From assembly GCA_016219375.1 (NCBI GenBank), contig JACRNC010000023.1, positions 186,001 to 250,000 of the forward strand: 64,000 nucleotides of DNA. The letters are read 5' to 3'. Made by a program: the position numbers and the translations under genes. Below are positions 24,616-46,092 of the stretch, one piece after another (within the stretch, counting starts at the first letter, position 1; each line of letters begins with the position of its first letter). The notes below the pieces were generated by a model, which saw nothing but the letters and a program-made list of their open reading frames with translations, was not told the origin of the DNA and searched no databases. The stretch comes from Burkholderiales bacterium. GTDB lineage: Bacteria; Pseudomonadota; Gammaproteobacteria; Burkholderiales; Burkholderiaceae_C.

Positions 24616-26373
24616 ATGAAAGCACCTTTTCCCGCCCGCTGGTGGGCGAGGGGAGTGGCTTGCAGTCTCATCGTGTGCGGCGCCGTGGCGCCGGCCCAGG
24701 CGCAGCATGCTTCCCCCGCCGCCGCGCCGGCCTCCGCCCCCACTGACGCTGCGCAGGGTTCTGCGGCGGAGGCCGCCCGGCAGGCCCCGCGTTTCGGCAT
24801 CTACGAGTTCGAGGTCGAGGGCAACACCGTGCTGCCGGTGCTGGCCATCGAGCGCGCGGTGTCGCCCTTCATGGGCGAGGGCCGCACCGTGGCCGACGTG
24901 GAGGCCGCCCGCGCCGCGCTGGAGAAGACCTACCAGGACGCCGGCTACCTGAGCGTGTTCGTGGACGTGCCCGAGCAGCGCGTGGACGAAGGCGTGGTGC
25001 AGCTCAAGGTCCTGGAGGGCCGCGTGGAGCGCCTGGCGGTGACCGGCTCGCGCTACTACGACCAGGGCGTGATCCGCAGCCGGGTGCCGGAGCTGGCCGA
25101 GGGCCGCGTGCCCAACTTCAACGTGGTGCAGGCCCAACTGGCCACGGTCAACACCAACGAGCTGCGCCGCGTGCAGCCGGTGCTGCGCCCGGGCCGCGAC
25201 CCCGGCACGGTGGAGACCGAGCTGCAGGTCAGCGACCGCCTGCCGGTGGGCGGCAGCATCGAGCTCAACAACCACCACGCGCAGTTCACCAAGCCGCTGC
25301 GGCTGCAGGCCTCGGTGCGCCACGACAACCTCTTCCAGTCCGACCACAGCCTGGTGCTGACGGCCATCACCGCGCCGCAGGACACCGCGCAGAGCAAGGT
25401 GCTGGTGCTCAACTACACCGCGCCGCTGGTCGGCGGCGACGCGTGGATGGGCTTCCTCGTCGCATCTGACAGCGCCATCGAGCCGCTGGGCGTGGCCAAC
25501 GTGATCGGCAAGGGCACCAGCCTGGGCCTGCACCGCATCTGGAACCTGCCGGCCTCGCCCTATTTGCCCGGTTTCTTCCACAACCTGGCCCTGGGCGTGG
25601 ACGTCAAGGACCAGAAGGAAAACACCGTGGCCGGCAACAGCGGCCTGGCCACGCCGATGCGCTACGCGCCGATCACGGCGGGCTACACGGCCAACTGGCT
25701 GGGCGAGCAGGGCAGCCGCACGCAAGCCTCGGTCAACCTGGTGGCCAACCTGCGCACCACGCTCAAGCGCCGCGTGTTGCAGAGCGAATGCGGCGTCGCC
25801 GATCCGGGCGATCCGCGCGACAGCGTGGACCAGTTCGAGTGCAAGCGCGAGAACGCAGACGGCGGCTTCGCCCTGGTCAAGCTGGACCTGCGCCACGTGC
25901 ACAAGGCCTGGGAGACGGCCGCCGGCGCCTGGGAGGCCGAGTGGCACCTGGGCGGCCAGCTCGCCAGCCAGCCGCTGGTGGCAGCCGAGCAATACGCCAT
26001 CGGCGGCGCCGACACCGTGCGCGGCTATCTGGAGGCCGAGGCCATCGGCGACCACGGCGTGCTGGCCGGGGTGGAGCTGCGCGGCCCCAATCTCGCCCGG
26101 CGCGATGCGCCCGCCGATGCCGCCGGCGGGGGCAGCGTCTTCGACGAGATCACCGCCTACGGCTTCCTGGAGGGCGGCTCCATCCGCCTGATCGGCGGTG
26201 ACCGCCAGACGCTGGCCGGCACCGGCGTGGGCCTGAAGCTGCGCGCGCGCAAGAGCCTGTCGGCCAACGTGGATGTGGCCTGGCCGCTCAAGAGCACGCC
26301 CGCGGCCGACGGCGGCCATGTCACCCAGGCGGGCCAGCCGCGCCTGCACGTGCGCGTGGGCGCCGAGTTCTGA
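24616..26373 (+). CDS. Two-partner secretion outer-membrane transporter (TpsB, FhaC/ShlB family)
   Basis: A 585-residue outer-membrane protein from ATG 24616. The signal peptide is residues 1-31 (ending APAQAQ). Two POTRA domains follow: the first has FGIYEFEVEGNTVLP and the AALEKTYQDAGYLSVFVDVP loop (about 58-140), the second RVERLAVTGSRYYDQGVIRS (about 141-215). A C-terminal beta-barrel contains the conserved L6 motif VRGY (near residue 468, in GGADTVRGYLEAEA). TpsB proteins recognise the TPS domain of their partner in the periplasm and thread it to the surface. The partner gene begins 31 bases downstream. It is the first gene of the 24.6-43.2 kb operon. Confidence 0.95.
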   Translation: MKAPFPARWWARGVACSLIVCGAVAPAQAQHASPAAAPASAPTDAAQGSAAEAARQAPRFGIYEFEVEGNTVLPVLAIERAVSPFMGEGRTVADVEAARAALEKTYQDAGYLSVFVDVPEQRVDEGVVQLKVLEGRVERLAVTGSRYYDQGVIRSRVPELAEGRVPNFNVVQAQLATVNTNELRRVQPVLRPGRDPGTVETELQVSDRLPVGGSIELNNHHAQFTKPLRLQASVRHDNLFQSDHSLVLTAITAPQDTAQSKVLVLNYTAPLVGGDAWMGFLVASDSAIEPLGVANVIGKGTSLGLHRIWNLPASPYLPGFFHNLALGVDVKDQKENTVAGNSGLATPMRYAPITAGYTANWLGEQGSRTQASVNLVANLRTTLKRRVLQSECGVADPGDPRDSVDQFECKRENADGGFALVKLDLRHVHKAWETAAGAWEAEWHLGGQLASQPLVAAEQYAIGGADTVRGYLEAEAIGDHGVLAGVELRGPNLARRDAPADAAGGGSVFDEITAYGFLEGGSIRLIGGDRQTLAGTGVGLKLRARKSLSANVDVAWPLKSTPAADGGHVTQAGQPRLHVRVGAEF

Positions 26374-26404
26374 ACCCTCGAAGTCGTCTGCTGAGGACCG
26401 CCCC

Positions 26405-29400
26405 ATGAAGCCCGCCCACCTGCTCCCCCCGGCTCGCCAGGTTCGCCCGCGCACGCTGCGGCGCCAGGCCCTGCGCCGCATGCTGCGCGCGCTGCGGCGG
26501 GGCCGCGGGCTGCGGCCGCTGGTGTCGGCCCTGGTGGGCGCGCTGCCGCTCGTGGCCCTGCACCCTGCCGCCGTGGCCGGCAGCTTCCCGCGCGGGGTGG
26601 TGCGCGCCATCGCGGCGCCCTCGCCGCTGGCGGTCCCCACGCCGGGCACCGACTGGCTGCAGCAGGGCAGCGCGACGAACAACCACACGCAGGCGCAGAC
26701 CACCGGCCAGATGCAGGTGGACCAGGCTAGCACCCGGGCCATCTACCGCTGGAGCCGCTTCGACATCGGCTCGCGCGCATCGCTCACCATCAACACGCCC
26801 AGCGGCGGCAGCTCGCTCAACCTGGTCAGCGGCGGCGACGTGAGCCGCATCTTCGGCTCGCTCACGTCCAACGGCGAGGTCTACCTCATCAACCCCAGCG
26901 GCATCTGGTTCGGCCAGGGGGCCAGCGTCAACGTGGCGGGGCTGTTCGCCTCCACGCTGCAGCTGGATGCGGCGGACTACATGGCCGGGCTGGCGGGCAG
27001 CCTGCGCAGCGCGGCACCCACCTTCACCTGGCAGGACGTGAAGGATGCGGACGGCGCGGTGCTGCAGACCTTTGATCACCCCAGCAACTTCGTGCACGTG
27101 GACATCGGTGCGGCGCTGACCACGCCCAGCGGCGGGCGGGTCTTCCTGCTGGCGCGCGAGGCGACCAATGCCGGCCGCATCGAGACGCCCGGCGGGCAGA
27201 CCGTGCTGGCCGCGGGCCGCGAGGTCTACCTGCAGGCGCCCAGCACCGACACCAGCCCGCTGTATGCGTCCGAGGCCAATGCCAAGGTGCCGGCTACGCG
27301 CGGGCTGCTGGTGGAGGTGGGCGGCGGCGCCAGTGGCGAGGCGGCGAGCAACCTCGGCGAGATCCTGGCCGCGCGCGGCAACGTGACGCTGGTGGGCCTG
27401 GCCGTCAACCAGAGCGGGCGCATCTCGGCCACGACCAGCGTGCAGGAGAACGGGTCGGTCTTCCTGCTGGCACGCAGCGGGGCCACGGCGCTCAATGACA
27501 ACGGCGGCGTCATCAAGCGCGCCAACGTGGGTGGCCAGCTCACCCTGGGCGCGGGCAGCCGCATCGACATCACGCCCGAGGCGTCCGCCGCCACGTCCAC
27601 CGACTCGTCGGCCTTCACGCGCTCGCGCATCGAGCTCTCAGCCCAGACCATCGAGCTGCAGAGCGGCGCGGCCATCCGCGCGCCGGGCGCCATCGTCAAC
27701 GCGCGGGCGGCCGACGTGCCGGACTATGAGAACGCGGCCGTGGAGCTGCCTCCCTCATCCACCGCGCGCATCGTGCTGGGGGCGGGCAGCAGCATCGATG
27801 TGTCGGGCACCACGGATGCGCAGGTCTCCGCGGCGCGCAACTACGTCAGCACCGAGCTGATCGGCCAGGCCGACCTCAAGGACGCGCCGCTGCAGAAGCT
27901 GGGCCCGCTCTACCAGAAGAGCGGCGTGGTCTTCGACGTGCGCGAGGACGTGCCCATCCTGGGCGTGAAGGCCGGCGACGCAGCCAACCCCTATGTGCAG
28001 GCCACCGCGCGCACCGCCAGCGAGCGGCTGGCCAGCGGCGGCACGATCACCCTGCAGTCCACCGGGCTGGTGGCCGCGCATGCGACGTCCGTGCTCAACG
28101 TGTCCGGCGGGCAGGTCACCTACACCGGCGCCACCGTGCCCAGCGTGAGCGTGCTGGTGGCGGCAGACGGCACGCGCTACACGCTCAACGACGCGCCGGT
28201 GGACCTGGCCTACCGCAGCCTGGAGGGCTATGCCCCAGGCAGCGTGGACCGCTTCGGCGTCAATGCGCCGGCAGGGGCCAACCTGCAGGGCCGCTGGGAC
28301 CCGGGCTATGTGGAAGGCCGCGCCGCCGGCACCGTGAGCGTGACCGCGCCGGTGGCCCTGCTGGACGGGCAGATGAGCGCCGGCACCGTCACCGGCGCGC
28401 GCCAGGCCGCCGGGCGCGACGCGCTGGCTGCCGCGGGCACGCTGAGCCTGGGCCGCACCACCGCGCCGGGCGACCAGTCGGCCGTGCTGGGCTCGCTGGC
28501 GATCACCGCCGCGCCGGCCGCAACAGATGCCGCCGCCCCGGCCTTCTGGGCCGACCCGCTGGCCGCGGCCGTGACGGATGAAGCCGGCCAGCCGCTGGCC
28601 AGCCGCGTCAGTGCGGCGCAGATCCGCGCTGCCGGCTTCGGCAAGCTCAACGTGGCGGCCGAAGGCCGCATCGAGCAGCAGGCCGGCGCGGACCTGCTGC
28701 TGCCCGAGCAGTCGTCCGTCACGCTGCGCAGCCGGCTGGGCGACGTGGCGCTGAACGCGTCCACCGTGACCCGCGGCGGCACGGTGGCGGTGACCGCCGG
28801 CTACGGCACGACGGCGCAAAGCGGCCCCGGTGCGCCGGCCATCACGCTGGCCGCCGGGCAGCGCATCGACGTGGCCGGCAACTGGGTCAACCGCTGGCGC
28901 GACGGCGCCGATGCCCGCGCGGCCGTCAACGGCGGCAGCATCGCGCTCAAGGCGGGCGGCGCGCTGACGCTGGGCACCGGCAGCGTGCTGGATGCCTCCG
29001 GTGGTGCCACGCTGGCCGCCAATGGCAGCACGGTGACGGGCACCGCCGCCGGCAGCATCGTGCTGGAGAGCAACAACGGCTCGGCCAGCGACCAGGCGCT
29101 TGCGCCCCTCACCCTGGGCGGCGAGCTGCGCGCCTACGGCTGGGGCCAAGGCCAGGGCGGCAGCCTGCGGGTGAAGGCCGGCGAGGTGCTGGTCCAGGCT
29201 GGTGACGCCGCGCCGCGCAGCGATGGCGCCACCCTGGTGCTGGGCGATCGCTTCTTCGAGCAGGGCGGCTTTGCCACCTACGACATCGAGGGCGTGCGCT
29301 CGCTGACGGTGGCGGATGGTGCAACGATTGCGCCGCGCACCGCCGCCTGGCTGGGCCGCGCCGGCCTGCGCAACGAGGCAAGCGGCACCGACATGGCCCG

Positions 29401-32400
29401 CGTGCTGGCCACCGGCCTGCCGCTGGACGGGCGGCTGTCGCCCATCAAGCTCACGCTGCAATCCAGGGGCTCGTCCAACATCACGACGCAGCAGGGCGAG
29501 GGCGCGCTGCGCCTGGCCGCGGGCGCCCGCATCCAGGCGGACCCGCGCAGCACCATCACGCTGGTGGGCGGCAACAGCCTGGTGGTGGAGGGTGACATCG
29601 CCAGCGCCGGCGGCAGCGTCAGCCTGTCGCTGGCCGGGCGCAATGCCACCGCCAACGAGCCCTTCGCCGGCACGCTGCGCGTGGCGGGCACGGCCGAGAT
29701 CGACGTGTCCGGCACCACGCTGATCACGCCCGATCGTGACCGCTACAACCAGGGCGAGGTGCTGGCCGGCGGCAGCATCACGGTGAGCACCACCACGGGC
29801 GACGGCGCGGCCGGCACGCGCACGCTGATCGACATCGAGGACGGCGCCGCGCTGCGCGCCAATGGCGCGGCCGGCGTGCTCGACGTGCCGCGCGCCGTGG
29901 GCGCCACCGGCCCGGCCCTCGCCCGCAACCAGATGGTGGCCAGCGACGGTGGCCGCATCAGCATCAACTCGCGCGAGGGCGGGGCCTACCTGGGCGGCAC
30001 CTTGGAGGCCCGCGCCGGCCAGATCCAGGCCGCCGATGGCCGCACCGTGCGCGGCGAGGGCGGCACGCTGGCGGTGGGCATCACCGGCAGCTCGCGCGAC
30101 AGCGCCAGCGGCATCGTGGGTGCCGTGCCCGAGGTGGCCGTGGTGCTGCAGCAGGCCGCACCCACGCGGGCCGACATCGCCGAAGGCAGGGTCACCGTGT
30201 CGGCCGACCGGCTGCGGGCCGGTGGCTTTGCCGACGTGCACCTGGCGTCTGCCGACCGCATCGTGCTGCTGGGCGACGTGAGCTACGCCACCAGCGGCAC
30301 GCTGAGCCTGGACGCGCCCGTGCTCACCGCCCGCCAGGCGCTGCAGGCGGGCCAGGCCGCGCAGCGCGTGAACCTGTCGGCCGCCACCGCGCTGCGCCTG
30401 GGCAGCAGCACGCGCATCGGCACGTCGCAGCCCTTGCCGGACAGCGGCCCCACGGCCGGCATGGCGCAGCTGGCCTTCAGCGGCGGGCTGATGGAGCTGT
30501 TCGGCGACCTGGTGGTGCAGGGCGCGCGGCAGATCGGCCTGGCTGGCGGCAGCGAGCTGCGCCTGCGCGGCGTGGCTCTGAGCGAGGACGGCCGCATCAC
30601 GCAGGCAGGCAGCCTGCGCGCCGCAGCCGACGTCACCTTCCGCGCGCCGCAGGTGGCACCCACCACCGCCACGCGCTACACGGTGGACCTGACCGGCGAG
30701 GACGGCACGGCCCAGCACAAGCTGCTGATCACCGGCGGCGATGCCGCCAGCGCCGCGCCGCTGTCCGCGGCCGCGGTCTTCACCGCCAAGGCGGCCGACA
30801 TCGAGCTCAACAGTGGCGTCATCCGCGCGCCCTTCGGCCAGGTGGACCTGCAGGCCACGCGCTCCATCACCGTGCAGGGCGACAGCCTCATCTCCGTCAG
30901 CGGCAACGGCCTGGCCGTGCCCTACGGCGGCACGCTGGATGGCGGCAAGAGCTGGTCTTACAACGGCAACCCCATCGAGGCGCCGCTGGCCAAGTCGGTG
31001 ACGCTGGCCGCACCGGGCCAGACGGTGCAACTGCTGTCGGGCGAGGTGGACCTCTCCGGCGGTGGGCAGATGCTGGGCTGGGAGTTCGTGCCCGGCCCGG
31101 GCGGCTCCACCGACATCTTCACCGGGGCAGGCTCAGGAGGCGGTGGCGCCTACGCCATCGTGCCCGGCGTGGCGGGCTACGCGCCGCACGACGCGGCCAT
31201 CGCTGCCACCCAGGGCAGCACCACGCTGGGCGGCGCGCTGCCGCTGGGCCAGCAGATCACCCTCGGCGAGGGCGGTCCGCTGCCGGCAGGCACCTACACG
31301 CTGCTGCCGGCGCGCTATGCGCTGCTGCCCGGTGCCTTCCTGGTCAGCCCGCTGGGCCGCACAGCCACCGCGCTGGGCGCTACCCAGGCGCAGCCGGACG
31401 GCTCTTACGTGGTGGGCGCCGTGACCAGCCGCATCGGCTCATCGGCCAACAACCAGGTGGCCACGGCCTGGAGCCTCACGCCGTCGGCCATCGCGCGGCG
31501 CAGCTCCGAAGTGCGCACCACCGACACCGACACCTACTTCGCCGCCCAGGCAGCCAAGGCCGGCACGGCCGCCCCGCGCCTGGCGCGCGATGCCGGCGCG
31601 CTGAACATCGAAGCCCTGAGCCTGGCGCTGGAGAGCGTCAACCGCTTCGCCGTGCAGGACGCCGTGGCCCGCGGCGGCAGCCTCAACATCAGCTCCGAGC
31701 GCATCCACGTGGCCGGCGCCGGCACCCCGGCCGTGGCGGGCGCGCTCAACCTGTCGGTGGAGCAGCTCAACGCCACCGGCGCCTACAGCCTGATGCTGGG
31801 CGGCCGCCGCGGCGCCAGCACCGCTGCCGGCACCGAGGTGCAGGTGACCGCGCGCGAGGTGACGGTGGACACCGGCGCCGCCACGGCCCTGCAGGCCGGC
31901 GACATCGTGCTGGCCGCCACCGACAAGGTGGACGTGGCCGCCGGCTCGCGGCTGACCGCGCGCGAGCAGGCCGGATCGGCCGAGCAGCTGGCGTTGAGCG
32001 GCGACGGCGCGCTGCTGCGCGTGGCCGAGGACGTGGACGCCGCATCCGTGCGCACCGGCGCGATGGGCAACACCGGCGACCTGAGCCTGGGCGCCGGCGT
32101 GGCGCTGACGGGCGGCTCGGTGACGGTGGAGGCCACCAACAGCCTCAACCTCGACCCGAGCGCAGGCTTCAGCGCCGACACCATCAACGTCGGCGCCCGC
32201 CGCATCGACGTGGCCCCGGCCGCGGGCGGTGCGGGCGCCGGCGTGCAAGCCGGCACGGCCAACCTGGCCGCGCAACTGGCCGGCGCGCGCCGCGTGGCCC
32301 TGCGTGGCTTCGAGCGCATCACGCTGGCCGCCGGCACGCAGCTGGGCTCCGACCGGCTGGCGCGCATCACGCTGGACACTGCCTCGCTGCGCGCCGGCGG

Positions 32401-35400: not shown

Positions 35401-37252
35401 GCTGAGCACGGGCGAGGTGTCGCCGCTGCGCGTGGTGGCGCAAGAAGGCGCGATCACCTACGGCGGCGACGCGGCGGCCACCTTCCCCGTGGAGCTGGCG
35501 GTGCCCTTGCGCTTCATCGCGGCCCAGGGCATCACCGGCTATGCCGCCATCACGGCGCAGCACCAGGGCGCGACCGACCTGTCGCTGATGCAGGCCGGCG
35601 GCGACATCGTGTCGGCCAACACCGTGGGCGCCTCCGAGCTGGTGCGCCTGCACGGCCCGGGCGACCTGGTGGTGATGGCCGGCGGCGACATCGACCTGGG
35701 CCTCGGTGCGGGCATCGTCGCCATCGGCAACCAGGAGAACAGCCTGCTGCCGCGCGGCAGCGCCGCGGTGCACGTGCTGGCCGGCGTGGACCCGCGCCGC
35801 GGCGACTACACGCAGGCCGCGCAGCGCCACTTCGCCGTGCTGGCCGGTGGGCTGACCGGCGTGCCGGACGAGTTGGCGGCGCAGATCGAGGCCGCGCGCG
35901 GCCTGGCGGTGGGGGCGTCTTCTGACGACGACGCCCTGCTGGCCCGCGCCCGCGGCCTGGCCGGCGAGGCCGCGCACGACGCGGCCCTGTTGCGCGCCAT
36001 GCAGCGCGAGCTGGAAGACCCGGCGCTGACGCTGGCCCAGGCCCGGGCCGCCTTCACCGCGCTGCCCGCCACGCAGCGCGGCCTGATGGCGCGCCAAGTG
36101 GCCGGCGACCTGCTGGCGGCCACCTGGCTGGCCACCATCCCGGCCGCCGAGCAGGCCGGCCGCGTGCTGGCCCTGGCCGCGCAGCAAAGCGGCGGGGCGC
36201 AGCGCGTGGCGGCCGTGCGGGCCTTCGTGGCCCAGCGCACGGGCACGGACCCGGGCAGCGATGCCGCGGCGCTGGAGCGCTTTGCCGCGCTGCCGGTGGA
36301 GCAGCAGATCCTGGCGCTGCAGCCGGTGCTGGAGCAGGTGGTCACCGATGCCGGCAAGGCCGCAGCCCAGGCACAGGGCACGGCCAAGACGCTGGCCTAT
36401 GCGCCGGCCTACCAGGCGCTGGCGGCCGTCTTCCCGCAGGCCGCCGCCACGGCCGACCTGCTGATGGGCTCCAGCCAGATCGCCACGCGCCAGGGCAGCG
36501 CCCTGCACGTGCTGGCGCCCCGGGGCGGCGTCAACGTGGGCGAGCTCACGGGCAACAGCAAGTCCGCCAGCCAGCTCGGCGTGGTCACGCTGGGCGGCAC
36601 GGCCGCGCAGCCCGCGCCCATCAACATGCTGGTGCGCGACGACATCGCGGTGAACCAGTCGCGCGTGTTCTCGGTGGACGAGGGCGACGTGCTGATGTGG
36701 TCGTCCACCGGCAACCTGGACGCCGGCCGCGGCGCCAAGACGGTGACCGGCGCGCCGGCGCCCGTGTACTCCATCGACTCCACCGGCAAGGTGCAGGTGG
36801 ACGTCTCCAGCGCCTTCTCCGGCAGCGGCATCGCGGTGCTGGATGCCGACAGCACGCTCTACCTCTTCGCCCCGCGCGGCGAGATCAACACCGGCGATGC
36901 CGGCATCCAGTCGGCCGGCGCGGCCTTCATCGACGCGGTGCGCGTGGTCGGCCCCAGCCTGCAGGTGGCCGGCCCGGCGGTGGGCCTGCCTGCGCCGGCG
37001 GCCATCGCCACCACCGCGTCCAGCCTGGGCGGCCTGGGCCAGTCCGCCACCGCTGCCGGCCAGGCCGCGCCCAGCACCGGCGAGCGCGGCGAGGACGCCC
37101 CGCGCCGCAACCTGTCGCTGGACTTCATCGCCTTCGGCGAGATCCCGGCCGAGCCCACGGCCGCCGGGCCGGCGCCATCCAGCCCGCCGGCAGCCGGCGA
37201 CGGTCCGCGCGAGCCAGGTGACGACGAGCGCCGCAAGAAGCGCAGCAACTGA
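26405..37252 (+). CDS. Giant filamentous-haemagglutinin-like exoprotein (TpsA)
   Basis: A 3615-residue protein from ATG 26405 with GAGGA upstream. It has a long basic signal region (about residues 1-60, Arg-rich then hydrophobic). The TPS secretion domain follows (about 70-310) with LINPSGIWFGQGASVNVAGL near residue 162, a variant of the NPNGI motif. A very long beta-helical rod made of repeating Gly/Ala/Thr/Asn-rich strands fills most of the length. A conserved C-terminal region near 3350-3550 (ATRQGSALHVLAPRGGVNVG; LFAPRGEINTGDAGI) resembles DUF3739 of this family. The last 60 residues are Pro-rich, end in a basic KKRSN tail, and contain no Cys pair or toxin module. It is probably a surface adhesin or matrix protein. 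Confidence 0.93.
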   Translation: MKPAHLLPPARQVRPRTLRRQALRRMLRALRRGRGLRPLVSALVGALPLVALHPAAVAGSFPRGVVRAIAAPSPLAVPTPGTDWLQQGSATNNHTQAQTTGQMQVDQASTRAIYRWSRFDIGSRASLTINTPSGGSSLNLVSGGDVSRIFGSLTSNGEVYLINPSGIWFGQGASVNVAGLFASTLQLDAADYMAGLAGSLRSAAPTFTWQDVKDADGAVLQTFDHPSNFVHVDIGAALTTPSGGRVFLLAREATNAGRIETPGGQTVLAAGREVYLQAPSTDTSPLYASEANAKVPATRGLLVEVGGGASGEAASNLGEILAARGNVTLVGLAVNQSGRISATTSVQENGSVFLLARSGATALNDNGGVIKRANVGGQLTLGAGSRIDITPEASAATSTDSSAFTRSRIELSAQTIELQSGAAIRAPGAIVNARAADVPDYENAAVELPPSSTARIVLGAGSSIDVSGTTDAQVSAARNYVSTELIGQADLKDAPLQKLGPLYQKSGVVFDVREDVPILGVKAGDAANPYVQATARTASERLASGGTITLQSTGLVAAHATSVLNVSGGQVTYTGATVPSVSVLVAADGTRYTLNDAPVDLAYRSLEGYAPGSVDRFGVNAPAGANLQGRWDPGYVEGRAAGTVSVTAPVALLDGQMSAGTVTGARQAAGRDALAAAGTLSLGRTTAPGDQSAVLGSLAITAAPAATDAAAPAFWADPLAAAVTDEAGQPLASRVSAAQIRAAGFGKLNVAAEGRIEQQAGADLLLPEQSSVTLRSRLGDVALNASTVTRGGTVAVTAGYGTTAQSGPGAPAITLAAGQRIDVAGNWVNRWRDGADARAAVNGGSIALKAGGALTLGTGSVLDASGGATLAANGSTVTGTAAGSIVLESNNGSASDQALAPLTLGGELRAYGWGQGQGGSLRVKAGEVLVQAGDAAPRSDGATLVLGDRFFEQGGFATYDIEGVRSLTVADGATIAPRTAAWLGRAGLRNEASGTDMARVLATGLPLDGRLSPIKLTLQSRGSSNITTQQGEGALRLAAGARIQADPRSTITLVGGNSLVVEGDIASAGGSVSLSLAGRNATANEPFAGTLRVAGTAEIDVSGTTLITPDRDRYNQGEVLAGGSITVSTTTGDGAAGTRTLIDIEDGAALRANGAAGVLDVPRAVGATGPALARNQMVASDGGRISINSREGGAYLGGTLEARAGQIQAADGRTVRGEGGTLAVGITGSSRDSASGIVGAVPEVAVVLQQAAPTRADIAEGRVTVSADRLRAGGFADVHLASADRIVLLGDVSYATSGTLSLDAPVLTARQALQAGQAAQRVNLSAATALRLGSSTRIGTSQPLPDSGPTAGMAQLAFSGGLMELFGDLVVQGARQIGLAGGSELRLRGVALSEDGRITQAGSLRAAADVTFRAPQVAPTTATRYTVDLTGEDGTAQHKLLITGGDAASAAPLSAAAVFTAKAADIELNSGVIRAPFGQVDLQATRSITVQGDSLISVSGNGLAVPYGGTLDGGKSWSYNGNPIEAPLAKSVTLAAPGQTVQLLSGEVDLSGGGQMLGWEFVPGPGGSTDIFTGAGSGGGGAYAIVPGVAGYAPHDAAIAATQGSTTLGGALPLGQQITLGEGGPLPAGTYTLLPARYALLPGAFLVSPLGRTATALGATQAQPDGSYVVGAVTSRIGSSANNQVATAWSLTPSAIARRSSEVRTTDTDTYFAAQAAKAGTAAPRLARDAGALNIEALSLALESVNRFAVQDAVARGGSLNISSERIHVAGAGTPAVAGALNLSVEQLNATGAYSLMLGGRRGASTAAGTEVQVTAREVTVDTGAATALQAGDIVLAATDKVDVAAGSRLTAREQAGSAEQLALSGDGALLRVAEDVDAASVRTGAMGNTGDLSLGAGVALTGGSVTVEATNSLNLDPSAGFSADTINVGARRIDVAPAAGGAGAGVQAGTANLAAQLAGARRVALRGFERITLAAGTQLGSDRLARITLDTASLRAGGEAGVGASVQAGGITLTNTTGVAPGDLRETGPGALTLQAHGQAGGDGHVQITGAQAIDGVQQVQLTAAGSVVIGKDAQLSTGGDLLLTARTLTAATGAAPTVLDAGLSSERTLPQLQAGGLLSLARPGAGAPQSAAAAAGLGAHVILAADRIEQGGTIDLPTARLELHAAGSAGGTAVLFKGEARDAQGAVVTPGSQTLLPGVVRTYDGQAVAAPAGQLIVQAASGDVVAEAGSVIDVSAAAAPASAGGGAGSVSISAPAGDVTLDGRLLATSGAGQTGGSLSVDSLRALNLAALAARLADERDAVQGIQNFGAALKLRNRSGDQTVAAGTVLQAQQIALTSDAGALTVAGTLAAGAGDGVNAGGVQLQAGGDVTLASGARVSAHAADAGQAGGTVFIGTQQGRIALHGGAVVEARGQDAADGTLKLRAPRTGSGAGSDVAVDAIAADVSGMGAIQVEAFKTYEATTINQTASVAQGTIRGGASGTVDTVAEAERFLAGSAAIVSRLTAGLAADQRAKLALRAGIDITSPGDLTLANAWNLTRFSASGGIDRAGGQPINLTLRAAGNLLIHASLSDGFKAAGATNATTARTIAANGVIVGEQGSDLRLVGGADLGSADVLATVAPGDSSAETGDVRIGRNGRATFVRTTTGSIDLAAGRDVVLDSRQAVVYSSGLPVSVDGFAGLRFANEGLSDGSVRQSPFLSGSGNVSISALRDVVGGSNGATPYLTNWWWRTLDTDGQALWYTRYDQFEQGFGSFGGGDVRVSAGRDALQVQLAAPETGLLRQDGATRLKGGDVSLNAGRQVVAGMLIAGGDEARVTAAEIVAQPSPDELTAGDALVVLHGDTAVTLQARQGLEVGRVGEAGMVNGARQGTRFSPQLVSGLASSARLAATTTSGDLIYRVARPVNIDGLGAGGNELADSAWAAAAPRATRLAAMSGDLAVFDTLTVNPATSADVQLFAQGSVALGGLSLMGGTAQRSRVTYDSWIPPSSIFGDVTRPLLSTGEVSPLRVVAQEGAITYGGDAAATFPVELAVPLRFIAAQGITGYAAITAQHQGATDLSLMQAGGDIVSANTVGASELVRLHGPGDLVVMAGGDIDLGLGAGIVAIGNQENSLLPRGSAAVHVLAGVDPRRGDYTQAAQRHFAVLAGGLTGVPDELAAQIEAARGLAVGASSDDDALLARARGLAGEAAHDAALLRAMQRELEDPALTLAQARAAFTALPATQRGLMARQVAGDLLAATWLATIPAAEQAGRVLALAAQQSGGAQRVAAVRAFVAQRTGTDPGSDAAALERFAALPVEQQILALQPVLEQVVTDAGKAAAQAQGTAKTLAYAPAYQALAAVFPQAAATADLLMGSSQIATRQGSALHVLAPRGGVNVGELTGNSKSASQLGVVTLGGTAAQPAPINMLVRDDIAVNQSRVFSVDEGDVLMWSSTGNLDAGRGAKTVTGAPAPVYSIDSTGKVQVDVSSAFSGSGIAVLDADSTLYLFAPRGEINTGDAGIQSAGAAFIDAVRVVGPSLQVAGPAVGLPAPAAIATTASSLGGLGQSATAAGQAAPSTGERGEDAPRRNLSLDFIAFGEIPAEPTAAGPAPSSPPAAGDGPREPGDDERRKKRSN

Positions 37253-37294
37253 TCCCCCGGTTTCCTCTTTCGACCCTTTCCTTCGCCGCACACC

Positions 37295-38989
37295 ATGAAG
37301 CCCCTGCTGCCCGCCCTGGCCCTGATGGCCGCCGCGCTGCTCCCCGCCTCGGCCCATGCCTGGTGGGACGACGCCTGGACCCAGCGCACCCGCATCACGC
37401 TCAACACCTCGGCCGCCGGCGTGGAGACCAAGGAGGCGGCGCAGGACGTGGCCGTGCCGCTGCGCCTGCACTCCGGCAACTTCGACTTCCTGGGCGCCAA
37501 GCCCGACGGCAGCGACCTGCGCGTGGTCGCCGCCGACGACAAGACGCCGCTGCCCTTCTGGGTCGAGCGCTGGGATGCCACCAACGAGCTGGCGGTGGTC
37601 TGGGTCAAGCTGCCGCAGGTGCTGCCCGGCAGCGACCAGAACGTGGTTCACGTCTACGCAGGCAACGCGCAGGCCCCGGCCCAGGCCGCCGAGGCCCGGG
37701 CGGTGCTGCCCGGCGCCGCGCTGGCGGTGGTGCACTTCTCGGGCAACGCCGGGCCGGCCGCGGATGCGAGCGGCGCATGGGCGAGCACCGGCAGCGTCAG
37801 CCGCGAGCCCAACGGCTTCATCGGCGCCAGCGCCCGCCTGTCCGGCCAGCCGGTGGTCTGGCCCGCCGGCAGCATCAAGGCCGCATCCGGCGCGCCCTAC
37901 AGCCTGAGCTTCTGGCTGCGGCCCGACGCCGCGCCGACGGACGCCACGCTGCTGGCCCAGGGTGCCCTGCGCATCGGCACCGAGGGCGGCAAGCTCACCG
38001 CTCGCGTCGGCAATGCCGTGCTGCAGGCCGGCGAGCTGGCCGCCAGCAGCTGGACCCAGGTGGCGCTGACCCTCGGCAACGGCCGGGCCACGCTCTACGT
38101 CAACGGTGCCCAGGCCGCGCAGGCCGACGTGCCGGCCAGCCCGGCCATCGAAGGCGAGCTGCGCATGGGCGAGGGCTACACCGGCCTGATCGATGAGCTG
38201 CAGATCGCCTCCACCGTGCGCAGCGCCGATGCCGTCCGCCTGGCGCATGCGGCGCAGGCCGGTGAGGCCAAGCTCATCGCCGCGGCCATGCAGACCCCGG
38301 ACGATGCGCAGGAGGGCAGCGGCGACCACGGCTACATGGGCATCCTGGTGAGCAACCTCACGGTGGACGCCTGGGTGGTCATCGGCATCTGCGGCCTGAT
38401 GCTGCTGGTGGCCATCTGGGTGATGGCCTCCAAGGCCATGCTGGTGGCGCGTGCCGATGCGGACAACCGCCGCTTCCTGGCGCACTTTCGCGAGGCGCGC
38501 GACGTGCTGGGCGTGGACGGCCGCTATGCCCACTCGTCGCTGCAGCGCCTGTACCTGGCCGGCCTGCGCGAGTTGAAGAAGCGCGACGTCGGCCAGCCCG
38601 GCGCACCGGCCCTGTCCGGCGCTTCCATCGACGCGGTCAAGGCCGCGGTCGATGCTGACCTGGTGCGCGAGACGCACACCCTCAACGCCAAGATGGTGCT
38701 GCTGACCATCGCCATCTCCGGCGGGCCCTTCCTCGGCCTGCTGGGCACGGTGGTGGGCGTGATGATCACCTTCGCCGCCATCGCCGCGGCCGGCGACGTC
38801 AACGTCAATGCCATCGCGCCCGGCATCGCCGCCGCCCTGCTGGCCACCGTGGCCGGCCTGGGCGTGGCCATCCCCTCGCTGTTTGGCTACAACTACCTGG
38901 CCGCCCGCATCAAGAACATCTCGTCGGACATGCAGATCTTCGTCGACGAGTTCGTCACCCGCGTGGCCGAAACGCACGGAGCCCGCTGA
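37295..38989 (+). CDS. Exported DUF2341/LamG-like domain fused to an ExbB/TolQ proton channel
   Basis: A 564-residue fusion. A signal peptide (1-22) leads to a DUF2341 domain (about 25-130, starting WWDDAWTQRTRITLN) and a concanavalin/LamG-like domain (about 140-320, PYSLSFWLRPDAAP and GLIDELQIASTVRSADAV). Three membrane segments of the MotA/TolQ/ExbB family follow: about 358-380, 465-492 (GLLGTVVGVMITF) and 506-531 (PGIAAALLATVAGLGVAIP). The two channel threonines (GTV, ATV) are kept, but the acidic residue seen in E. coli ExbB (GIAEALIAT) is Ala here. It likely forms a proton-driven motor with the two ExbD proteins downstream while its periplasmic lectin-like domain contacts glycan or secreted protein. 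Confidence 0.9.
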   Translation: MKPLLPALALMAAALLPASAHAWWDDAWTQRTRITLNTSAAGVETKEAAQDVAVPLRLHSGNFDFLGAKPDGSDLRVVAADDKTPLPFWVERWDATNELAVVWVKLPQVLPGSDQNVVHVYAGNAQAPAQAAEARAVLPGAALAVVHFSGNAGPAADASGAWASTGSVSREPNGFIGASARLSGQPVVWPAGSIKAASGAPYSLSFWLRPDAAPTDATLLAQGALRIGTEGGKLTARVGNAVLQAGELAASSWTQVALTLGNGRATLYVNGAQAAQADVPASPAIEGELRMGEGYTGLIDELQIASTVRSADAVRLAHAAQAGEAKLIAAAMQTPDDAQEGSGDHGYMGILVSNLTVDAWVVIGICGLMLLVAIWVMASKAMLVARADADNRRFLAHFREARDVLGVDGRYAHSSLQRLYLAGLRELKKRDVGQPGAPALSGASIDAVKAAVDADLVRETHTLNAKMVLLTIAISGGPFLGLLGTVVGVMITFAAIAAAGDVNVNAIAPGIAAALLATVAGLGVAIPSLFGYNYLAARIKNISSDMQIFVDEFVTRVAETHGAR

Positions 38990-39016
38990 CATGTGCCTCG
39001 ACGTTGATCAAAGCGC

Positions 39017-39189
39017 GGGCCGAGCGCCGGGCCGCCCCAAGCCGGCCCGCATCCCCTCGGGGGATCGACCGTCGTACTCGACGGGCGAGGGGCGGTCATC
39101 TCTGCGGGGCCGAGCGCCGGGCCGCCCCAAGCCGGCCCGCATCCCCACGGGGGATCGACCGGCGTACTCGACGGGCGAGGGGCAGTCAT
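39017..39189 (+). repeat. Two 83-bp direct repeats between exbB-like and exbD genes
   Basis: Copy 1 spans 39017-39099 and copy 2 spans 39107-39189, with only a few mismatches. Each contains the hairpin CGGGCCG...CGGCCCG (39028-39034/39043-39049 in copy 1) and CCC-T/A-CGGGGG. Copy 2 ends in CAT of the exbD start ATG (39188), so the repeat supplies the translation-initiation region. Part of the element recurs at 15284 in the RND pump gene. Confidence 0.95.
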
Positions 39190-39595
39190 GAGCGGGGATG
39201 TGAAGGGCGACAACCAGCCCTACGACGACATCAACATCACGCCGATGCTGGACCTGGCCTATGTGCTGCTGGTGACCTTCATCATCATGACCACCGCCTC
39301 GGTGCAGGGCGTCAAGGTGGACTCGCCGCTGACCCAGGCCGCGGGCAACCTGGCCAAGCCGCAGACCCGGGCCATCACCATCACGGCCGATGGCAGCGTC
39401 TACCTCGACGCCTACCCGGTCAGCATGGAGCAGCTGCAGAGCTCGCTGGCGCAATACAAGGCCGCCAATCCCAACCTGCCCGTCGTCCTCAAGGGCGATG
39501 CGGCGGCGCAGTACGACAAGGTGATGGAGGTGCTGGAGATCGCCAAGCTTCTCAACATCACCGAGATCGGCCTGGTCACCAAGCGCGCGCCCTGA
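39188..39595 (+). CDS. exbD: ExbD/TolR-family motor protein (copy 1)
   Basis: A 135-residue protein with a short cytoplasmic N-terminus, one membrane segment (about residues 20-42) and a periplasmic domain. The membrane segment carries the essential acid of the family: INITPMLDLAYVLLV, D22, equivalent to the proton-carrying Asp of ExbD/TolR. The C-terminal domain has the typical VVLKGDAAAQYDKVMEVLEI helix. It starts at ATG 39188, within the end of the second 83-bp repeat. It should form the rotor/peptidoglycan-binding part of a Ton-type motor with the ExbB fusion. Confidence 0.93.
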   Translation: MSGDVKGDNQPYDDINITPMLDLAYVLLVTFIIMTTASVQGVKVDSPLTQAAGNLAKPQTRAITITADGSVYLDAYPVSMEQLQSSLAQYKAANPNLPVVLKGDAAAQYDKVMEVLEIAKLLNITEIGLVTKRAP

Positions 39596-39608
39596 GGAGG
39601 ACCGGACC

Positions 39609-40010
39609 ATGCAAGTCCAGGACGACGCCAAGCCCTACGACACCATCAACGTCACGCCGATGCTGGACCTGGCGTACGTGCTGCTCGTGGTCTTCATCCT
39701 GATGACGACCGCTTCGGTGCAGGGCCTGTCCATCACCATGCCCAAGCCCTCCAACCAGCCGTCCACCGAGAAGCACGAGGTCAAGATCGTGCAGGTCATG
39801 CCCGGTGGCCAGGTGCTGCTCAACGGCGCCAACGTGACGCTGGCGCAGCTGGAGTCGGAGCTGGCCGCGGCCCAGGCCCGCGATCCCAAGATGTCGGTGG
39901 CCATCAAGGGCGATGCCCGCACGCAGTACGCCTCGGTGGTCGCCATCGTGGACCTGTGCAACAAGCTGGGCGTGAGCATGGGCCTGGTCACGTCGCGCAT
40001 CGGTAATTAG
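39609..40010 (+). CDS. exbD: ExbD/TolR-family motor protein (copy 2)
   Basis: A 133-residue paralogue of the preceding gene, 13 bases downstream, with a strong GAGGAGG ribosome site. It has the same layout and the conserved acid D20 in INVTPMLDLAYVLLV. The periplasmic parts of the two copies differ (here ITMPKPSNQPSTEKHEVKIV), so they may form an ExbD heterodimer inside the ExbB pentamer. Paired exbD genes are common in Ton systems dedicated to one outer-membrane partner. Confidence 0.92.
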   Translation: MQVQDDAKPYDTINVTPMLDLAYVLLVVFILMTTASVQGLSITMPKPSNQPSTEKHEVKIVQVMPGGQVLLNGANVTLAQLESELAAAQARDPKMSVAIKGDARTQYASVVAIVDLCNKLGVSMGLVTSRIGN

Positions 40011-40018
40011 GAGAACCT

Positions 40019-40732
40019 GTGAGCGACCTCGCCGAAGCCGAACTGGGCCACTCGCCGGCCCGCCGCTGGGCCGCGCGAGCGGGCATCGCTGCCGCGGTGC
40101 TGGCCGCACTCGCCCTGCTGGCCTGGCTGATCAGCGGCGTGGGCACGAGCAGCCCCAGCGGCCCGAAGCGCCAGGTGGCCAAGATCGCCATCCTGCCGGA
40201 CACGCCCCCGCCGCCTCCTCCGCCGCCCAAGGAAGACACGCCGCCGCCGCCCAAGGAGGCGCCCAAGCAGGCCCTGCAGACCGAGGCCCCCAAGGCCGAA
40301 GCGCCGCCCGAGCCCACCGAGTCGCTGAAGATGGAAGGCCCCGCCGGCGACGGCCCCAGCGCCTTCTCCGCCGGTGCCGTCACGCAGGACTACCAGGGCG
40401 GCGCGGTGATCTCCGGCGGCAATGCCAATGCGTCGGGCGCCGACCGCTCGCGCTTCATGTTCTATGCCAACAGCGCGCGGCAGATGCTGCGCGGCGAGCT
40501 CGACAAGCAGCTCGACCGCGAGGTGCTGCGCCTGGGCGCGCGGCTGCGCATCTGGGTGGCCCCGGGTGGCGGCATCGAGCGCTACGAGATCGCGCAGATC
40601 GGCAACCCCGCCTTCGAGGACGAGCTGCGCGCCGCGCTGGACCGCGCCGCGCGCGGCTACCGCCTGCCGCCGCCGCCCGGCCTGCCCCAGCCGCTGGAGC
40701 TGCAGCTCTCCGTGCGGCCGGCCGGCGGCTGA
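40019..40732 (+). CDS. TonB-like energy-transducing protein
   Basis: A 237-residue protein from GTG 40019 with AGGAG 6 bases upstream. It has an N-terminal membrane anchor (about residues 20-42, containing AAVLAALALLAWLISG) and a Pro/Lys-Glu-rich spacer (DTPPPPPPPPKEDTPPPPKE, 61-80) that can span the periplasm. A C-terminal domain (about 145-237, RLRIWVAPGGGIERYEIAQI, then FEDELRAALDRAARGYRLP) has the TonB C-terminal pattern. It would transmit motor force to an outer-membrane protein of the same operon, either TpsB or the porin downstream. Confidence 0.88.
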   Translation: MSDLAEAELGHSPARRWAARAGIAAAVLAALALLAWLISGVGTSSPSGPKRQVAKIAILPDTPPPPPPPPKEDTPPPPKEAPKQALQTEAPKAEAPPEPTESLKMEGPAGDGPSAFSAGAVTQDYQGGAVISGGNANASGADRSRFMFYANSARQMLRGELDKQLDREVLRLGARLRIWVAPGGGIERYEIAQIGNPAFEDELRAALDRAARGYRLPPPPGLPQPLELQLSVRPAGG

Positions 40733-40770
40733 CCCGCTCCCTTTTCATCACACACACCCAAGAGTCCGAC

Positions 40771-42510
40771 ATGACGGTCACCCCGCCCTGCCTGGATGCC
40801 GCGCGCCGCGCGGTCGCCCGCTCCGCGTCCTCCTGCCCCGGCCGCCTGCGCCTGGCCCCGCTCACCCTGGCCCTGCTGATGGCCGGCGCCGCCGCCCAGG
40901 CCGCGCCTGCCGATGAACGCGCCGAGCTGGAGCAACTGCGCGCCACCACCCATGCGCTGATCCAGGCCCTGGTCGACTCCGGCCTCATCAGCCCGGAGAA
41001 GGCGCAGACCCTGGTGCAGCAGGCCCAGCGCGCCCGCCCGGCCGAGGCCGCCGCTGCAACGGGCACAGCGCCCGCGCGCAACGTCGTGCGCATCCCCTAC
41101 GTCAGCGAGACGGCCAAGGCCGAGATGCGCGAGCAGATCAAGCAGGAGGTGCTGGCCCAGGCGCGCAGCGAGCGCTGGGGCGAGCCCGGCGCGCTGCCCG
41201 ACTGGCTCAGCCGCATCGGCCTGGAAGGCGACGTGCGCGTGCGCCTGCAGCGCGAGTTCTTCAGCAAGGACAACATCACGCCCAACGACATCAACGGCGG
41301 CTGGCGCTCGCAGGACCAGACGCCCGCCTGGGCGCCGGACCTGGCCAACACCACCAACGACCGCGACCGCGTCACCCTGCGCGCGCGCCTGGGCGTCAGC
41401 GGCGAGCTGGGCGGCGGCTGGGCGGCCGGCCTGCGCGCGGCCACCGGCAGCGATGCCTCGCCGGTGTCCACGTCGCAGACCCTGGCCGGCAGCGACGGCC
41501 ACCTGGGCAAGTACCAGCTCTGGCTGGACCGCGCCTTCGTCAAGTGGCAGGCCCAGCCGGGCCAGGTGCTGGAGGGCACCACGCTGGTCGCCGGCCGCTT
41601 TGCCAACCCCTTCTTCGGCACCGACCTGAGCTGGCCGTCGGACCTCAACTTCGACGGCCTGGCCGCCAGCCACCGGCGCGCGCTCGGCAGCCGCGCCGCC
41701 GTGTTCGCCCATGCCGGCGCCTTCCCGCTGCAGGAGTTCAGCATCAGCGGCGCGGACAAGTGGCTCTACGGCGGCCAGATCGGCGGCGAGTGGAAGCCCG
41801 ACGAGCGCACCCAGCTCACCCTGGGCCTGGCCTATTACGACTTCAACCGCATCGAGGGCCATGCCAGCGACCAGGCCACGCCCAGCGGTGTCGATGCCGG
41901 CGTGGTGCCGTATCTCACCTCGCAGTACCCGCGCTCGGTGCGCCAGAAGGGCAACACGCTGATCCGGTTGAACCAGTCGCCGCTGGAGGTGACCGATGCG
42001 GCCGTCTGGGGCCTGGCCTCCAGGTTCCGCCCCATCGACCTGACGCTGGCGGCCAGCTTCCACCACTTCGCGCCCGTCACCGTGCGCGCATCCTTCGACT
42101 ACATCAAGAACACCGCCTTCGACTTGGACGACATCCGCCGCCGCTCGCTCACGCCGGCGCTGGAGCTCAAGGACAAGACCACCGCCATGCAGGCGCGCGT
42201 CACCGTGGGCAGCGCGCGCGTGGACAAGGCTGGCGACTGGCAGGCCGGCTTCACCTGGCGGCGCATCGAGCGCGACGCCTGGCCCGACGCCTTCACCGAC
42301 ACCACCTGGCACCTGGGCGGCACCAACTACGACGGCTGGAGCCTCGGTGGCGAATACGGCATCGGCCCCGGCACCTCGCTGGGCTTGCGCTGGACCAGCA
42401 CGCGCAACCTGGACGACGGTCAGTCGCTGCTCTTCAACGGGCAGAAGAACTTCAGCAACGCCGACCTGAAGATCGACGTGCTGCAAGTCGAGCTCAACAG
42501 CCGCTTCTGA
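40771..42510 (+). CDS. Large outer-membrane porin-like protein (putative porin family)
   Basis: A 579-residue protein with a signal peptide (about residues 1-45, ending AAQA). A coiled N-terminal stretch (ADERAELEQLRATTHALIQALVDSGLISPEKAQTLV) follows. A long beta-barrel ends in NSRF with terminal Phe, the usual signature of outer-membrane barrels; motifs WLSRIGLEGDVRVRLQREF and FGTDLSWPSDLNFDG match the putative-porin family. It is in the Ton-motor operon, 38 bases after the TonB-like gene. It could form the channel or receptor energised by that motor, but no TonB box or plug domain is evident. Confidence 0.85.
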   Translation: MTVTPPCLDAARRAVARSASSCPGRLRLAPLTLALLMAGAAAQAAPADERAELEQLRATTHALIQALVDSGLISPEKAQTLVQQAQRARPAEAAAATGTAPARNVVRIPYVSETAKAEMREQIKQEVLAQARSERWGEPGALPDWLSRIGLEGDVRVRLQREFFSKDNITPNDINGGWRSQDQTPAWAPDLANTTNDRDRVTLRARLGVSGELGGGWAAGLRAATGSDASPVSTSQTLAGSDGHLGKYQLWLDRAFVKWQAQPGQVLEGTTLVAGRFANPFFGTDLSWPSDLNFDGLAASHRRALGSRAAVFAHAGAFPLQEFSISGADKWLYGGQIGGEWKPDERTQLTLGLAYYDFNRIEGHASDQATPSGVDAGVVPYLTSQYPRSVRQKGNTLIRLNQSPLEVTDAAVWGLASRFRPIDLTLAASFHHFAPVTVRASFDYIKNTAFDLDDIRRRSLTPALELKDKTTAMQARVTVGSARVDKAGDWQAGFTWRRIERDAWPDAFTDTTWHLGGTNYDGWSLGGEYGIGPGTSLGLRWTSTRNLDDGQSLLFNGQKNFSNADLKIDVLQVELNSRF

Positions 42511-42527
42511 TGCGACAGGAGCCCGCC

Positions 42528-43244
42528 ATGCCGACCCCCGTGCCCTTTGCGCCGACCCACGGGCGCCCTGCGCGCCCGCGCCCCAGCGTGCTGGCCGGTG
42601 CCGCGCTGCTGGCGCTGCTGGTGACCCTGATGCCGGCCGGCTCCTGGGCACAGGAGCGCGCCAGCCGCGAGCGAGAGGCGCTGCGCCGTGCCCAGCAGGC
42701 CCTGCGCGACGCTCAGGCCGAGAACGCCACGCTGCAGCAGGCACGCAGCGCGCTGGCGACCGAGAAGGACGCCCTGGCCGCGGACAAGGCCCGGCTCGAC
42801 GCCGAACTCGGCCGCGCCCGCGCCCGTGCCGCCCAGGTGGAGGCCGCCCGCCAGCAGGTCGAGCGCATGCAGACGGAGCTTGCCGAGCTTCGCGCCCAGC
42901 GCGACACGGCGATGGTCCGCATCGAGGACCTCAACACGCAGCTCCAGGCCTCCAAGGCCGCGGTGGCCAGCGTGCGCGCGATGCTGGAGCGCGCCACGGC
43001 CACGCAGGCGCTGCTCGTGCAGCGCAACCGCGCGCTCTACGACGTGGGCCTTGCAGCCATCGAGCTCTATCGCTCGCGCGACGCCGCAGCCACTTGGGCG
43101 CAGCGCGAGCCCGTCCTCGGCCTGGGCCAGGTCAGGGTGGAGAACGCCGCCGAGGCCCTGCGTGACCGGCTGGAAGCCGCCCGCCACATCACCTCCGAGG
43201 GCACGGCGCATGCAGACGGGACCGGCTCCGATCCTCAGCCTTGA
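42528..43244 (+). CDS. Exported periplasmic coiled-coil protein
   Basis: About 238 residues from ATG 42528, chosen for the AGGAG at 42516-42520; an ATG at 42510 overlapping the porin stop is in the same frame but lacks a ribosome site. A signal peptide or anchor (about residues 20-42, ending GSWAQ) is followed by about 120 residues of heptad-rich coiled coil (ERASREREALRRAQQALRDA; QVERMQTELAELRAQ). A short globular end follows (ALLVQRNRALYDVGLAAIEL). It is the last gene of the operon and may act as a periplasmic tether or spacer for the porin or motor. Confidence 0.78.
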   Translation: MPTPVPFAPTHGRPARPRPSVLAGAALLALLVTLMPAGSWAQERASREREALRRAQQALRDAQAENATLQQARSALATEKDALAADKARLDAELGRARARAAQVEAARQQVERMQTELAELRAQRDTAMVRIEDLNTQLQASKAAVASVRAMLERATATQALLVQRNRALYDVGLAAIELYRSRDAAATWAQREPVLGLGQVRVENAAEALRDRLEAARHITSEGTAHADGTGSDPQP

Positions 43245-44642: not shown

Positions 44643-44856
44643 CCGCCCCTCCTGCCCACTCCGGGCAAGGCTCTTGCGCCGTGGCTGCCGGCGGGTGGCC
44701 CGCCCACCCTCCGCGGCATCCTGCACGCCGCATGCTGCTGCCGGCACCGGGTAGGACTGCGCTGACAACCCCTCGGCCCCACAGCCGATGCGGCCCGGCG
44801 CCCGGTTCACCGCAGAATGTTCCGACAATGTTTTCACATCGGTCGGGCGGAACAAC

Positions 44857-45273: not shown

Positions 45274-45323
45274 GGCCGTCCCGCGCGGCGCCGCGCCGCC
45301 ACCGTGATCGACCCGCCATGAAG

Positions 45324-45348
45324 AACGGCCGCACGATGCGGCCGTTTT
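45324..45348 (+). terminator. Rho-independent terminator between converging regulators
   Basis: AACGGCCGCA (45324-45333) and TGCGGCCGTT (45337-45346) form a perfect 10-bp stem with a 3-base loop, followed by TT. It ends the plus-strand receiver gene and may also serve the minus-strand regulator, which reads toward it. Confidence 0.85.
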
Positions 45349-45384
45349 CGTGGGCAGTCCTCCGCCTGGAGGACCGGCCTCAGC

Positions 45385-46017: not shown

Positions 46018-46092
46018 GATGGGCGTTCCGTGTCGGGTGCGGGGGCCACGATTGTGCGGCAGCGTGCTGCCGCGGCCCGGTTCAGTCCCGGC

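Follow-up and report, generated by a model that had tools for sequence, protein, structure and literature searches.

The window analysed here, 64,000 nucleotides of a Burkholderiales genome (GenBank assembly GCA_016219375.1, contig JACRNC010000023.1, positions 186,001 to 250,000), holds a block of genes in which a two-partner secretion (TPS) pair, the transporter TpsB and the giant exoprotein TpsA, is followed by a Ton-type motor (a DUF2341-LamG-ExbB fusion, two ExbD proteins and a TonB-like protein), a Porin_5 outer membrane protein and a coiled-coil protein. Because this set of genes turns up again in other members of the order and of the class, and its marker families co-occur, the block is more than a chance arrangement and is almost certainly one conserved unit. 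It very likely belongs to the same kind of system as Pdt/PUMA3 of Pseudomonas aeruginosa, and we regard it as an even call that it forms an envelope-spanning, proton-powered scavenging machine in which TonB would act on TpsA and/or the porin and not on a classical receptor. These gradings, like all those that follow, are judgements and were not computed. An earlier note, made from the sequence alone, had named the same genes in one direction, and each of them was found by Pfam on the + strand where it had been placed (Table 1), the TonB match in the window being weak and supported by relatives.

Among 250 genomes of the order, a DUF3739-type TpsA was found in 28, DUF2341 in 30 and full-length Porin_5 in 28 (a count that leaves out five genomes with partial matches only), with all three in 27. 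The pairwise co-occurrence of these marker families gave Fisher p values of 1e-31 to 1e-33, which, like the motif counts given below, are uncorrected for relatedness. Three of the genomes breaking the pattern (G135, G052 and G082) have their match near the end of a contig or on one that is very short, and in the other two (G038 and G137) DUF2341 sits in other proteins, namely in other very large open reading frames (ORFs) with no adjoining ExbD, TonB or porin (G038 C1:1849692-1849907; G137 C102:14858-15043). DUF2341 is part of an ExbB fusion with adjoining ExbD and TonB in 28 of the 30 matching genomes, and beside these fusions lie a porin in 26, the coiled-coil gene in 27 (one cut by a contig end) and tpsA or tpsB in 26. 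The earlier note had made its case depend on conserved linkage in related genomes, and that linkage is strong. At class level (369 genomes), DUF3739 was found in 24, DUF2341 in 30 and both in 22; the ExbB-to-coiled-coil block lies beside Tps genes at 12 of the 20 loci examined (a set without G319 and G471), the remainder having DUF2341 elsewhere on the contig (five), on another contig (one) or reaching a contig edge (two). Three class genomes (G367, G384 and G398) have two DUF2341 matches each in frames of ExbB-fusion size, which suggests two motor copies.

A similar picture comes from 93 distinct ExbB-fusion loci, chosen by DUF2341, DUF3739 or the block's ExbB and therefore describing linkage among those, the 250-genome test being less selected. 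Here and below, seven loci duplicating other contigs are dropped except where stated, as are TpsA pieces running off a contig. A tpsA or tpsB gene is present at 91 of the 93, and the 56 loci with at least 6.5 kb visible downstream all have ExbD, TonB and the coiled-coil gene, with a porin at 54. On plasmids, the 11 records with a block-type ExbB are also the 11 best TpsB places (33.7-39.0% identity, 86-90% query cover); the other 19 TpsB records, among the best 30 of 94, are of lower identity or much shorter. Eight of the 11 matches were examined as loci (H1, H2, H4, H5, H6, H8, H9 and H11, two of them without gene tables). The block shares the TPS domain and the POTRA/ShlB transporter with classical two-partner secretion of the FhaB/FhaC type but differs from it in its company: at five other plasmid TPS loci, where TpsB was matched in all five and the TPS N-terminal domain in three, a profile scan gave no match to the motor, porin, coiled-coil protein or DUF3739 end in any. 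A Klebsiella pneumoniae plasmid (L210, 2133-5247) carries a decayed-looking copy, with tpsB in two frames and tpsA partial (the pieces being scanned separately), in which the ExbB, ExbD, TonB, porin and coiled-coil frames remain open. On a Methylomagnum plasmid (L217, 11602-22293), motor genes and the coiled-coil gene, with no adjoining porin, lie near two alkaline phosphatase genes including PhoX. Megablast gave no match to the Klebsiella version of the block in E. coli genomes.

That the block resembles the P. aeruginosa Pdt cluster, as the earlier note stated, proved right: the membership of P. aeruginosa is judged from published gene order, and relatives of the block, including Klebsiella and Burkholderia loci, join the two. 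The P. aeruginosa list comprises vreAIR, pdtA, phdA, pdtB, exbB2, exbD2, tonB4, PA0696-PA0699 and a LysR gene, with PA0696 as a putative outer membrane porin, PA0697 as structurally homologous to channel-forming colicins, PA0698 as YbjN and PA0699 as PpiC (PMC7035377). The promoter PphdA transcribes phdA, pdtB, exbB2D2, tonB4 and PA0696-PA0701 as one transcription unit (PMC4971064), and Llamas et al. (2009) describe homologues of the TPS, ExbBD and PA0696 proteins accompanying PUMA3 elsewhere, including in Burkholderia vietnamiensis (PMC2729926). The porin and the coiled coil, which the earlier note took to go beyond Pdt, therefore have entries in the Pdt list already (PMC7035377); the second ExbD does differ from that list, yet it is a trait of lineage, two copies being present at 28 distinct loci and one at 64. 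The window and its relatives have tpsA, tpsB, exbB, exbD, tonB, porin and helical-protein genes together, and the Klebsiella plasmid locus has the content of the published P. aeruginosa list apart from phdA. PA0697, which we presume to be helical, is taken by its position as the counterpart of the coiled-coil protein. The VreI regulon (PA0690-PA0701) and the window locus thus share TpsA, TpsB, ExbB, ExbD, TonB, a putative porin, a colicin-like protein and adjoining DING-like genes. On the other hand, the window locus lacks STN-ECF-FecR, YbjN, PpiC and a detectable Pho box, and has a second ExbD, a PEP-CTERM gene and the order tpsB-tpsA. A type II secretion cluster adjoins the block on a Cupriavidus plasmid (L215, 1-13800), much as hxc neighbours Pdt in P. 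aeruginosa.

The motor itself is apparently intact in its ExbB/ExbD channel, judging from its motifs. The ExbB part resembles solved TolQ and ExbB chains in a structure-library match, and its channel motifs, built on residues that we take from ExbB/ExbD work to matter, were found by regular expression in 93 and 94 of 98 ORFs; the membrane Asp of ExbD was found in this way in 118 of 125 (duplicates included in both sets), and among the seven misses the five listed keep the Asp in PMLD. Both ExbD proteins of the window carry it. The window's TonB-like protein alone matches TonB_2 at E=0.0086, which falls short of the Pfam cut-off; the domain is found at E<=0.01 in 36 of 44 aligned members, the window's included, at best with 7.5e-14. 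A GltJ match of the same protein (0.0029, far short of the cut-off and in the proline-rich part) was discarded. The source genome has six ExbD matches, two at the block and four on other contigs, and five TonB-dependent receptors, all on other contigs than the block's, where PF00593 found no match; its only POTRA_2 (TPS-type) match and its only Porin_5 match are both at the block. With further ExbD and receptors elsewhere in the genome, the block's motor is an extra, dedicated one, in line with the earlier note's linked system owning a Ton-type motor. From which genes are present and which are absent, we lean towards a motor that acts on TpsA and/or the porin instead of on a receptor. DUF2341 is named as an unexplained appendage in a stator paper (PMC12505986). 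Searches of the papers available found none on DUF2341 together with two-partner secretion, none on DUF3739 and none that we recognised as describing the role of the motor; exbB2-exbD2-tonB4 and PA0696-PA0700 are called uncharacterised or of unknown function in a regulon active in phosphate starvation and infection (PMC7035377).

Two features go beyond the earlier note, namely conserved upstream genes for PstS/DING-type and PEP-CTERM proteins and a conserved C-terminal motif of TpsA. The PstS/DING-type gene was matched in 22 loci and the PEP-CTERM gene in 18, each count including the window's own locus, and the two genes stand side by side in 12 of those 18. The PstS/DING-type family profile matches DING/PstS structures (2v3q 6.7e-06, 3w9v 1.4e-05), PBP_like_2 is found in 5 and the PstS family in 7 of 13 members, and the motifs R-x-x-x-S-G-[TS], presumably a phosphate-site motif in its R...SGT form, and [ST]D.E are present in 13 and 12 of the 13. 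Where more than 2.5 kb is visible ahead of TpsB (37 loci, including one duplicate, L169, a copy of G561), 23 loci have a PstS-like gene, 19 of them within 1.5 kb upstream of TpsB and four shortly before tpsA, where tpsA comes ahead of tpsB; of the other 14, seven start inside tpsA or a little before it, so that the gene could not be seen there. Genes for STN and extracytoplasmic function (ECF) regulators adjoin eight loci, five of which (L212, L214, L216, L218 and G138) also have FecR, YbjN and a peptidyl-prolyl isomerase (PPIase), so that all five kinds stand together there, and the 36 loci with a PstS-like gene include none of the eight. At the block itself (window positions 15001-55000), no match was found to STN, ECF, FecR, PPIase (PpiC) or YbjN. 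The PstS/DING-type gene, judging from these neighbourhoods, is thus part of one of two architectures of the block. Plasmids of Klebsiella quasipneumoniae, Variovorax, Burkholderia and Methylosinus are among the carriers of the regulator-bearing form; on the conjugative plasmid of K. quasipneumoniae (L216, 1-26380), a second large FHA-type gene lies upstream of that system, with arsenic genes beyond.

It is moderately likely that the block serves the scavenging of phosphate or a phospho-ligand. This role is suggested by the PstS/DING-type neighbour together with several published observations. For example, expression of the Pdt genes requires PhoB and VreI in low phosphate (PMC4971064, PMC7035377), and PA0688 and PA0689, whose numbers adjoin that of pdtA (PA0690), correspond to the DING-like proteins LapA and LapB (PMC2225411). 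A PF16930 porin of P. putida BIRD-1 is induced by phosphate depletion and missing from the exoproteome of a phoBR mutant (PMC5082522), and in strain SBW25 the DING protein PFLU2427 is secreted alongside PFLU2428, a large FhaB-like exoprotein with an adhesin-type domain.

The TpsA tail offers a candidate docking peptide. For the 430 C-terminal residues, AlphaFold2 (mean pLDDT 83) predicts a helical domain, a beta-solenoid end and a low-confidence tail, in a model that had no PDB match at E<=0.001. The tail holds a ten-residue motif of consensus [LI][ST]V[ED]VLGFG[DE], which scores at least 12 in 114 of 122 TpsA tails, a score reached by 1 of 2969 internal segments and by none of 2440 shuffled tails; when training was confined to the G genomes, the matrix picked the motif in 64 of the 79 other tails and in 1 of 1817 internal segments, in a split by source, not by clade. 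No more than 15 residues follow the motif in 79 of the 114 proteins, and 36 follow the window's copy, LSLDFIAFGE. The linker ahead of it is Ala/Ser-rich (median 42 aa) and of low pairwise identity (mean 0.29 against 0.24 when shuffled), and the motif is absent from two TpsA proteins of other TPS loci. By eye, its first half resembles TonB boxes through a hydrophobic-[ST]-V-[ED]-V core, but the matrix picks out no such boxes in the genome's own receptors. A second docking candidate is the N-terminus of the porin, which is modelled as helical ahead of the barrel and is well conserved in alignments, a strict regular expression being matched in 38 of 84.

Together, these parts could be combined as follows. 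TpsB would export TpsA, which would stay attached to the cell surface as a scaffold; the DUF2341-LamG-ExbB/ExbD motor would drive the TonB-like protein, which in turn may engage the flexible tail of TpsA and/or the periplasmic N-terminus of the porin, not a classical TonB-dependent receptor; the coiled coil might span the periplasm as a bridge; and the whole would serve to capture phosphate, or a ligand containing it, and to bring it in. Such a function would be akin to that of Haemophilus influenzae HxuCBA, which also combines a TPS exoprotein and a TonB-dependent entry route in one operon (PMC4873976, PMC5422565), with the porin replacing the receptor: HxuC is a TonB-dependent receptor, whereas the window block has a porin instead and its motor genes within the block. 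In a more specific and rather doubtful version, the C-terminal peptide of TpsA docks the dedicated TonB or periplasmic partners and the motor pulls the exoprotein, which would then work as a moving device for capture at the cell surface and supply phosphate compounds to a porin gated by Ton.

Several observations weigh against the scavenging machine or its phosphate role. The fold of the porin matches generic porins, with OmpM1, chitoporin, AlgE and PorB outranking OprO/OprP, and a tail-motif matrix run on the genome's five receptors (two without a clear N-terminus) picked no TonB boxes. The location of the TpsA tail and the contacts among the parts are suppositions and may differ from those proposed. 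The window's PstS/DING-type protein alone gave no significant Pfam or NCBIfam match, its assignment coming from the family profile, and seven loci with a visible upstream region lack the PstS-like gene. No Pho box above chance was seen in the window or at 37 block starts with a crude consensus. In SBW25, the porin PFLU4536 is numbered far from the exoprotein PFLU2428, so the parts may work apart. A weak terminator-like hairpin (40724-40738) also lies between the tonB and porin genes, such sites being not above chance.

Among the alternatives, an export motor survives best and is still unlikely: here the motor would power the export, folding or surface release of TpsA, as a proton-driven type Vb variant required by a cargo some 3500 residues long, and would take no part in nutrient entry. 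TpsA is indeed giant and uniform in length (78 copies above 3000 aa, median 3472, interquartile range 3408-3504), it co-occurs with TpsB and the motor, and its export would end with the tail motif. There is also a precedent for Ton-dependent secretion in PopC of Myxococcus xanthus, which leaves through Oar (PMC6434023); that case shares with the block a Ton motor in protein secretion but uses a TonB-dependent transporter, and a TPS pair is not described in the abstract. However, type V translocation is regarded as independent of such an energy source (PMC5422565), and an export motor would leave the dedicated porin, the LamG-ExbB fusion and the PstS-like gene unexplained. The N-terminus of TpsB ahead of its POTRA domain is, moreover, not conserved in alignments, so TpsB shows no conserved peptide resembling a TonB box.

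It is less probable again that the motor pulls on the tail of TpsA so as to hold, tension or retract it as an adhesive tether, phosphate limitation being merely the signal for induction. A conserved motif after a variable Ala/Ser-rich linker, a tail apparently disordered in the model and the conservation of the coiled-coil and TonB-like proteins would suit a tether, but adhesion has no need of a porin or a PstS/DING-type protein, and the periplasmic site of the tail is only presumed. We give little credence to independent phosphate-starvation or envelope functions clustered through co-regulation alone. The distant numbering of the PF16930 porin in SBW25 and the occurrence of motor blocks apart from tpsAB fit such a view, which the near one-to-one co-occurrence across order and class, the dedicated paralogues and the presence of the same set on plasmids oppose. 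Signalling from the cell surface to an ECF sigma factor as the chief task of the Ton-like proteins, to which the eight loci with STN and ECF genes and the TolA/TonB-like C-terminal domain of VreA (PMC2729926) point, is highly improbable given the absence of matches to such regulators at the window locus, the separation of these genes from the PstS-like gene and the conserved channel motifs.

Should the motor act on TpsA or on the porin, Ton coupling would no longer be confined to classical receptors, and the rule of energy-independent type V secretion would need qualifying. Treating the set as one widespread unit makes the role of a Ton motor for a type Vb exoprotein testable in harmless relatives from the environment, with the TpsA tail motif, the porin N-terminus, the LamG-ExbB domains and the phosphate-binding-type neighbour as named targets.

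Table 1. Features of the block and of the two genes upstream, in window coordinates
Feature	Position	Strand	Evidence or remark
PEP-CTERM protein	21986..22774 (about)	+	PF07589 2.2e-07; start at the Met before a signal-like stretch
PstS/DING-type protein, 457 aa	22931..24304 (about)	+	Matches in relatives and family profile
TpsB transporter	24616..26373	+	POTRA_2 (PF08479 2.3e-16), ShlB (PF03865 4.8e-13); alternative ORF start at 24475
TpsA exoprotein, 3615 aa	26405..37252	+	N-terminal TPS domain (PF05860 1.1e-19), DUF3739
TpsA predicted all-helical domain	35960..36430	+	AlphaFold2 model, residues 1-157
DUF3739, predicted beta-solenoid end of TpsA	36683..36991	+	Pfam and AlphaFold2 model
TpsA C-terminal ten-residue motif, LSLDFIAFGE	37112..37141	+	Motif matrix
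DUF2341-LamG-ExbB fusion (DUF2341-Laminin_G_3-MotA_ExbB)	37295..38989	+	Pfam; PF01618 8.9e-28
90-bp tandem duplication, ExbB-ExbD1 gap	39017..39189	+	1.9 copies
ExbD1	39188..39595	+	PF02472 5.6e-26
ExbD2	39609..40010	+	PF02472 6.1e-25
TonB-like protein	40019..40732	+	TonB_2 weak alone; family members match
Porin_5 outer membrane protein	40771..42510	+	PF16930 5.1e-156; barrel model
Coiled-coil protein, signal-like N-terminus	42510..43244	+	Present in 56/56 visible loci

Several other readings of individual proteins were set aside. A polymorphic toxin does not describe TpsA, in which Pfam finds only the TPS domain and DUF3739 and whose conservation is spread along its length with a peak in the stretch holding DUF3739 (sample of 46). 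DUF3450 was found in only 3 of 37 members of the coiled-coil family, whose matches among solved structures are generic coiled coils, and a defence system was dismissed, PADLOC having matched the coiled-coil protein alone, to coiled-coil SMC-like models.

From TpsB to the coiled-coil gene, the intergenic gaps measure 31, 42, 198, 13, 8, 38 and -1 nt, all on the + strand. The 198-nt gap contains the 90-bp unit in its tandem copies, and the 28-base core of this unit has no other copy in the window with up to 3 mismatches allowed. A search for sigma-70-like promoters between 24000 and 43999 found none and is uninformative at this G+C content, and no RNA family was found within 20000-48000. Long minus-strand ORFs over TpsA are expected given 72.5% G+C. 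On the 3' side of the block, a + strand ORF of 394 aa (43458-44642) has no Pfam match and is unmatched in those neighbourhoods of relatives that were compared; farther downstream (44788-48086) lie genes for a response regulator, a LuxR-type regulator and a CHASE3 histidine kinase, which have few matches near the blocks of relatives.

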